From: an uncultured Lachnospiraceae bacterium | GTDB lineage: Bacteria > Bacillota > Clostridia > Lachnospirales > Lachnospiraceae | Reading direction: 5' to 3' | Assembly (NCBI GenBank): GCA_947175845.1 | Contig: CAMWOK010000002.1 | Location: forward strand, 1-34,671 | DNA length: 34,671 bases | Part shown: positions 27,439 through 30,047 of the stretch, piece by piece | How positions within the stretch are numbered: position 1 is the first letter of the stretch | Layout: each line of letters opens with the position of its first letter | The notes under the pieces: generated by a model | Told to the model about the DNA's origin: nothing | Databases searched by the model: none | Seen by the model: only the letters and a program-made list of their open reading frames with translations | Program-made: the position numbers and the translations under genes

Positions 27439-28431
27439 TCACTCATCCCTGCTGCCCGCAAGGAACTCCACGTACTTGCCTGTACCGATGGCTACCGCCG
27501 TCATCGGCTCCTCCGCAGTCATGGTATTGATGCCGGTCCTGGACTCAATCAGGTCCTCGAGCCCGCAGAGCAGGCTTCCGCCCCCGGTGAGCACAATTCC
27601 CCTGTCCGCGATATCTGCCGCAAGCTCAGGCGGAGTTTTCTCCAGAACGCTGTGGATCGTGTCGATAATCTGGGAGGTCGTCTCGCGAAGCGCCTCCTCC
27701 GTCTCGTCAGAGGAAACTCTGATCGTCTTGGGAAGACCTGTGACGAGATTGCGTCCCCTCACATCCAGATAATCCACTTCCGCTCTCTTAAATGCTGAAC
27801 CAATTTTAATTTTAATGTCTTCTGCCGTTCTCTCACCAATCAAAAGATTGTGTTTTTTTCTCATATATCTGACAATGGCTTCGTCGAAGTCATCGCCTGC
27901 GACCTTGATCGATGCACTGACCACAGTGCCTCCAAGCGATATCACCGCAATATCCGAGGTACCGCCCCCGATATCCACGATCATATTCCCACAAGGTTTT
28001 GAGATATCAATCCCCGCACCGATCGCCGCTGCAATCGGCTCCTCAATAATCTTGACATCCCTCGCGCCCGCCTGGTAGGTGGCATCCTCAACAGCCTTCT
28101 TCTCCACCTCTGTGACTCCGCTCGGCACACACACCGCGATGATGGGCTTTCTGAATGTCTTTCTGCCCAGCGCCTTCTGAATGAAGTGCTTCATCATCTG
28201 CTCGGTCACTTTGTAATCGGATATAACGCCCTGTCGGAGCGGTCTGACTGCCACAATATTTCCCGGCGTTCTGCCGAGCATCAGACGCGCATCCTCACCG
28301 ATGGCCTTTATCTTCTGCGTGTCCCTGTCAAAGGCAACGACAGAAGGCTCCTTCAGCACGACGCCCTTTCCTCTGATATAAACTAATATACTCGCGGTTC
28401 CAAGATCGATTCCAATATCTGTGTATTGCAT
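27439..28431 (-). CDS. mbl: MreB/Mbl-family actin-like protein
   Basis: MQYTDIGIDLGTASILVYIRGKGVVLKEPSVVA; IAVCVPSGVTEVEKKAVEDA; MIVDIGGGTSDIAVISLGG; RGIVLTGGGSLL. Start corrected to ATG at 28431. Confidence 0.95.
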   Translation of the reverse strand: MQYTDIGIDLGTASILVYIRGKGVVLKEPSVVAFDRDTQKIKAIGEDARLMLGRTPGNIVAVRPLRQGVISDYKVTEQMMKHFIQKALGRKTFRKPIIAVCVPSGVTEVEKKAVEDATYQAGARDVKIIEEPIAAAIGAGIDISKPCGNMIVDIGGGTSDIAVISLGGTVVSASIKVAGDDFDEAIVRYMRKKHNLLIGERTAEDIKIKIGSAFKRAEVDYLDVRGRNLVTGLPKTIRVSSDETEEALRETTSQIIDTIHSVLEKTPPELAADIADRGIVLTGGGSLLCGLEDLIESRTGINTMTAEEPMTAVAIGTGKYVEFLAGSRDE

Positions 28432-28781: not shown

Positions 28782-28812
28782 AAAAAAAGACTGCCACCTA
28801 TCTGTGACAGTC
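28782..28812 (-). terminator. Rho-independent terminator of the bactofilin gene
   Basis: Minus strand GACTGTCAC-AGATAG-GTGGCAGTC (9-bp stem, one G-U) followed by TTTTTTT. Confidence 0.92.
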
Positions 28813-28825
28813 CACACTTGTATCG

Positions 28826-29236: not shown

Positions 29237-29977
29237 TTAACCTTTCGCTTCCAGTACCAGCAGCGGATCGATCACCTGCTCCTCATAAATAACCTGGTAA
29301 TCAAACGGCGTATCGTTCCCGCTGATCACAATCATGGCATCCCGGATCTTCACCTGCTGTCCCGCCGCCACCTGCACATTCGCCTCCTGCTGACACATAT
29401 AGCGCGATCGATAACCGTTCCCATGATCTACTTCTATGATAATTGGATATGTATCATCCGAGGCAACTGAGGTAACTGTGCCATCTCCCGCGGCGATAAT
29501 CCGATCCTCCGCCTGTGCGCTGATCGAGATATACGGGTGCTCCTCCGAGTAGGATTCCTTCAAAAGTCCTCCTGCAGTGCAGGGGTACTGGCTCGGGACC
29601 GATGTGTCCCTGGGCGTCTCCTCCGGCGCACTCTCCTCTGACTCCGCCGTCTCAGCTTTGACGATCTCAGCCTGCCTGTATAATTCAATCTCTTCTGTGA
29701 GGGCCGCATTCTCCGTGTTTAAGGCTTCCTTTTCTCCCTCAAGCTGCTCCACTTTCTGTTCGCTTGCCGCCAGCTTCCTGCGAAGATCATACTCGTTTTT
29801 AAAGCGCGCACCCGAACGGTATATCGTCCATGCAAACGTGATGCAGATCACCAGCATCAGGATAACCAGCAGCCGCAGAGCCCTGAGTGGAAAGTAAAAC
29901 TGTCTGGTTTCCTTTCCCGTGTTGGAGATGAGCAAAAGCGAGAAAGATTCCTTGCGCTTGTGTTTTTGCTGTTTCAT
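29237..29977 (-). CDS. Membrane-anchored coiled-coil protein with degenerate LytM/M23 domain (SpoIIQ-like candidate)
   Basis: One N-terminal TM (LRLLVILMLVICITFAWTIY), coiled coil, then IIAAGDGTVTSVASDDTYPIIIEVDHGNGYRSRYMCQQEANVQVAAGQQVKIRDAMIVISG with catalytic motifs lost. Start at ATG 29977 after GGAG. Confidence 0.75.
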   Translation of the reverse strand: MKQQKHKRKESFSLLLISNTGKETRQFYFPLRALRLLVILMLVICITFAWTIYRSGARFKNEYDLRRKLAASEQKVEQLEGEKEALNTENAALTEEIELYRQAEIVKAETAESEESAPEETPRDTSVPSQYPCTAGGLLKESYSEEHPYISISAQAEDRIIAAGDGTVTSVASDDTYPIIIEVDHGNGYRSRYMCQQEANVQVAAGQQVKIRDAMIVISGNDTPFDYQVIYEEQVIDPLLVLEAKG

Positions 29978-30019
29978 AATAATCTCCATTCTGTGTCAAA
30001 CTATTACAACTATGTTACA

Positions 30020-30047
30020 ATTCTATCACAAATTTGCAAAATGTCAA
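30020..30047 (-). promoter_or_regulatory. Strong sigma-A-type promoter with extended -10 upstream of LytM-like/bactofilin genes
   Basis: Minus strand TTGACA-N16-TAGAAT with TG at the extended -10 position (TGATAGAAT). Confidence 0.75.

Follow-up and report, generated by a model that had tools for sequence, protein, structure and literature searches.

A LytM protein without an active site is encoded next to a bactofilin in Lachnospiraceae and is probably its membrane partner

The analysed stretch of DNA (34,671 nucleotides from an uncultured Lachnospiraceae bacterium, here called the window) belongs to a genome assembly of 3.1 Mb in 428 contigs that is 71% complete. It encodes a membrane protein with a degenerate LytM domain, whose gene lies between an MCP gene and a bactofilin gene (Table 1). 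Counted from the first ATG, the open reading frame spans 29237-29989(-); we prefer the start at 29977 because a GGAG Shine-Dalgarno sequence is found 6 nt before this ATG. A previous sequence-only reading had noted a bactofilin gene after it and mbl nearby; the profile matches place the bactofilin gene directly downstream, followed by mbl-flgF-flgG. The LytM gene and the bactofilin gene are separated by a gap of 12 bp. The promoter-like site is located 43 bp 5' of the start codon, matches the consensus at 11 of 12 positions and is among the best in the region, and promoter-like sites are also present between the terminator and mbl. From the promoter-like site, the 12-bp gap and the terminator, we conclude that the LytM gene and the bactofilin gene form a two-gene operon and that mbl is a separate unit. 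The N-terminus of the bactofilin, MLGKGK, resembles the membrane-targeting consensus MFSKKKK (PMC12448750). The same genome contains two more bactofilin-domain genes on contigs C127 and C107 (open frames of 335 and 215 aa). In addition, a small gene after flgG (window:25329-25718) matches a rod-binding domain of the FlgJ N-terminal type.

Table 1. Features of the LytM-bactofilin locus and the evidence for each.
Feature	Position	Strand	Evidence
Dead-LytM bitopic membrane protein, 246 aa	29237..29977	-	Pfam, AlphaFold2, alignment, GGAG
Cytoplasmic beta-hairpin, residues 11-30, predicted bactofilin-binding element	29888..29947	-	AlphaFold2, family-wide pattern, analogy to LmdC
Transmembrane helix, about residues 32-54	29816..29884	-	Hydrophobic stretch; start of model helix 31-111
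Extracytoplasmic coiled coil, about residues 55-111	29645..29815	-	Model helix; weak coiled-coil family matches
Degenerate LytM (M23) domain, residues 131-246	29240..29587	-	PF01551, 37.8 bits; Foldseek; active-site loss; dN/dS
Promoter-like site TTGACA-N16-TAGAAT with TG before the second hexamer (extended -10)	30020..30047	-	Consensus match only
Bactofilin, 132 aa	28826..29224	-	PF04519, 104.6 bits; own AGGAGG
Intrinsic terminator immediately downstream of the bactofilin gene, closing the operon	28788..28813	-	10-bp stem, 5 G-C pairs, T tail
mbl/mreB, separate transcription unit, neighbour outside the module	27439..28431	-	Profile matches; clade-limited linkage

The single transmembrane segment noted earlier is recovered both as a hydrophobic stretch and in the AlphaFold2 model. 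In the model, two strands (residues 11-17 and 24-30) form a beta-hairpin that directly precedes the transmembrane helix; they are followed by the long helix and a LytM fold. The model was built on 10 sequences only (mean pLDDT 76, pTM 0.48), and the hairpin is of modest confidence, with pLDDT about 57-58 at the first strand and the turn. The same layout of hairpin, transmembrane helix and coiled coil is also seen in the family alignment. Residues 151-216 match the Pfam M23 family above its cut-off of 28.7 bits. Foldseek matches of the LytM domain include Csd1-Csd2, EnvC, LytM, SpoIIQ and DipM. The best fold match in the PDB is the Helicobacter pylori Csd1-Csd2 dimer, with EnvC, SpoIIQ and active M23 enzymes nearly as good. 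A profile search against the PDB ranked EnvC, SpoIIQ and DipM about equally, and phmmer with the window sequence alone gave only marginal matches there.

We compared the active site of the window protein with those of M23 enzymes from the same genome whose motifs are intact (contigs C34 and C93). The alignment confirms that an M23 fold is combined with lost metal and catalytic motifs, as had been suspected. The HxGxD position reads HPYIS, with Asp replaced by Ser, and no His is left at the YxH position (YMCQ) or the HLHFE position (PFDYQ). More than one canonical catalytic residue is kept in none of the 68 family members; the HLH columns are gaps in this alignment, and the members in a separate family alignment show no His there. 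Even the remaining first His is replaced by Q, T or M in other clades. Constraint on the protein is nonetheless strongest in the LytM domain, where dN/dS is 0.02-0.12 for close pairs, and the gene is under strong purifying selection. This constraint implies that the dead domain has a function. A recently decayed enzyme or pseudogene is ruled out by the low dN/dS together with the loss of the active site in all 68 members. Because orthologs also occur in 26 of the 38 genomes of the genus, the observation is not due to chance.

The association with the bactofilin is strict within the genus, where the next gene is a bactofilin in all 26 genomes that carry the LytM gene. The pair occupies several different genomic sites. 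Only the clade of the window has it upstream of mbl-flgF-flgG; in other clades it is found on other contigs and next to unrelated genes. Furthermore, the tree of the LytM proteins and the tree of their bactofilins contain the same three clades. Among other genera of Lachnospiraceae, a bactofilin directly follows this type of LytM gene in 27 of 33 loci, mostly beside yerC. The weak order-level matches outside the family that were inspected are in most cases SpoIIQ-like proteins or LytM proteins of other kinds with no bactofilin next to them. The pair can also come apart, since in three genomes a bactofilin from the clade of the partners has no LytM gene beside it (L071, L072 and L073 in G009, G026 and G019) and several LytM relatives have no bactofilin neighbour.

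The genus also contains a dead-LytM paralog, here called type B, which sits between dapA-dapB-hisA-like genes and yerC. The genome of the window contains two type-B paralogs (L067:4199-4960 and L068:3313-4104, on contigs C61 and C254), neither of which adjoins a bactofilin; in one genome of the genus, a type-B gene has a bactofilin neighbour. Type B aligns with the window protein from end to end, including the hairpin (hhalign probability 99.9), and the alignment of SpoIIQ with the window protein is confined to the LytM domain. At two loci (L041:1569-2786 and L042:2807-4024), a tandem partial paralog lies upstream of the gene. Its first ~150 residues are 61-63% identical, and a second TM-like stretch and a C-terminal region without a Pfam match replace LytM.

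Gene pairs of bactofilins and M23 proteins, as well as dead M23 partners, are already known. In the LmdC-BacA module of Hyphomonas neptunium and Rhodospirillum rubrum, the cytoplasmic hairpin of LmdC binds the bactofilin BacA, and LmdC keeps the full set of Zn ligands and is active as a DD-endopeptidase (PMC10945521). The window protein resembles LmdC in its adjacent bactofilin gene and, in a comparison of layout only, in the order of cytoplasmic beta-hairpin, transmembrane helix, coiled coil and C-terminal M23 domain. The difference is that LmdC is active, whereas the active site is lost in every Lachnospiraceae member examined. Another parallel is Csd2, a non-enzymatic M23 homolog of Csd1 that is found in the H. 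pylori shape complexes with the bactofilin CcmA; the Csd1-Csd2 dimer is also the best fold match. However, dead Csd2 is there described as pairing with active Csd1, and no active partner is encoded beside the window gene. EnvC and DipM, which activate hydrolases through a dead LytM domain, have about equal profile scores. Their architecture differs from that of the window protein, and we know of no tie of either protein to a bactofilin.

Two alternatives had been offered for the window protein, a diverged SpoIIQ or a scaffold that partners the bactofilin; the first falls with the SpoIIQ ortholog on contig C14 (described below), and the second is supported. It draws on the strict pairing, the operon structure, the matching trees and the anatomy of hairpin, transmembrane helix, coiled coil and LytM domain. 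As none of the 68 members keeps an active site, we class the protein as a non-enzymatic counterpart that would act in the manner of LmdC, not as LmdC itself. We thus consider it probable that the window protein is an LmdC-type membrane partner of the bactofilin from the same operon and acts as a dead LytM adaptor. Most likely, it ties the internal bactofilin scaffold to the cell wall. In such a mechanism, bactofilin polymers on the inner face of the membrane would bind the cytoplasmic beta-hairpin and so fix the position of the protein. The transmembrane helix and the coiled coil would hold the dead LytM domain on the outer side of the membrane; there, it may bind peptidoglycan, recruit or activate active hydrolases, or both. 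In this way, the adaptor would determine local growth of the wall and the shape of the cell. We infer that the protein binds the bactofilin, acts as an adaptor and affects cell shape.

A special case of this adaptor role, which does not exclude it, is that the dead LytM domain pairs with an active M23 enzyme in a heterodimer, in the manner of Csd2 and Csd1. The top fold matches are Csd1-Csd2 complexes, and the M23 proteins on contigs C34 and C93 with intact HxGxD and HLH motifs could provide the other half. However, the loci examined showed no gene for an active M23 enzyme next to the pair, and we regard a heterodimer as rather unlikely.

Less likely still is a flagellar accessory role, in which the bactofilin-LytM pair would prepare the wall so that the products of the adjacent flgF-flgG can assemble the rod. 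In its favour, mbl-flgF-flgG directly follow the pair in the clade of the window. Moreover, in Bacillus subtilis bactofilins affect flagellar assembly, and an flhO mutation suppresses the loss of bactofilins (PMC9103452). However, the linkage is limited to one clade, and the terminator parts the operon from mbl; on these two observations we reject a functional cluster with mbl-flgF-flgG. In addition, flagellar rod or hook genes occur in all 38 genomes, including the 12 without the window gene.

Lastly, we considered whether the protein could be a diverged form of SpoIIQ, binding SpoIIIAH across the sporulation septum. SpoIIQ has a LytM domain and one transmembrane helix; the domain is dead in Bacillus and binds Zn in Clostridioides difficile. 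A single transmembrane helix with a dead LytM domain is thus shared by SpoIIQ and the window protein, and this trait is not specific to SpoIIQ. The NCBIfam SpoIIQ model gives the window protein 27 bits, which is far from the cut-off of 250 and below its MepM score. The position near mbl-flhO-flhP, as in Bacillus, had also been taken as a sign of SpoIIQ, but this linkage does not extend beyond the one clade. The absence of spoIIID from the locus was correctly recognised; the gene lies elsewhere in the genome, and SpoIIID is found in 36 of the 38 genomes. Both spoIIIAH and another spoIIQ, which the sequence-only reading had proposed to look for elsewhere, are present outside the window locus.

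This other spoIIQ lies on contig C14, where a protein with a transmembrane segment and a degenerate LytM domain is encoded adjoining a SpoIID-like gene. The C14 protein outscores the window protein with the SpoIIQ model (42 vs 27 bits), and its best PDB match is SpoIIQ (2e-8, next best 1e-4). Proteins of this type occur in 37 of the 38 genomes, and in other families of the order relatives are encoded next to SpoIID, which Pfam confirmed in one case. A spoIID-spoIIQ operon is known from C. difficile (PMC4982068). We conclude that the C14 protein is the SpoIIQ ortholog. By contrast, the window gene has no SpoIID neighbour and its product no SpoIIQ-specific similarity. It is also not universal among spore-forming relatives, being absent from 12 of the 38 genomes although SpoIIIAH occurs in 37. 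SpoIIQ carries a SpoIIIAH-binding insertion in its LytM domain (PMC3533761), and ~11 residues are absent from the window protein before HxGxD, near the place where this insertion may lie. As a near-universal, SpoIID-adjacent SpoIIQ ortholog is encoded on C14, the window gene is not SpoIIQ, and a diverged SpoIIQ is a very improbable explanation. The genus SpoIID-like protein (L065:5917-6618) is short and diverged, with 36 bits in NCBIfam against a cut-off of 234.75 and a Pfam score just above cut-off. This divergence may account for reports of SpoIID missing from Lachnospiraceae. Several dead-LytM proteins coexist in these genomes, and SpoIIQ is the one next to SpoIID alone; this distinction guards against a likely mis-annotation.

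Our literature search found no paper joining bactofilin with Lachnospiraceae. A wholly dead, operon-mobile version across the family was likewise not found in the literature searched, and some members may be in the pair list of PMC10945521. Returning to the adaptor reading, we tentatively suggest that the module might be wholly non-enzymatic across Lachnospiraceae, with polymers steering wall remodelling via a tethered LytM activator. The operon might have moved intact to new sites, including the one next to mbl and the genes of the flagellar rod. Bactofilins are widespread, yet little studied in Gram-positive anaerobes. If our reading is true, the link of a bactofilin to the wall would need no enzyme of its own, and the operon would offer a two-gene unit for studying the control of wall remodelling by a cytoskeletal polymer.
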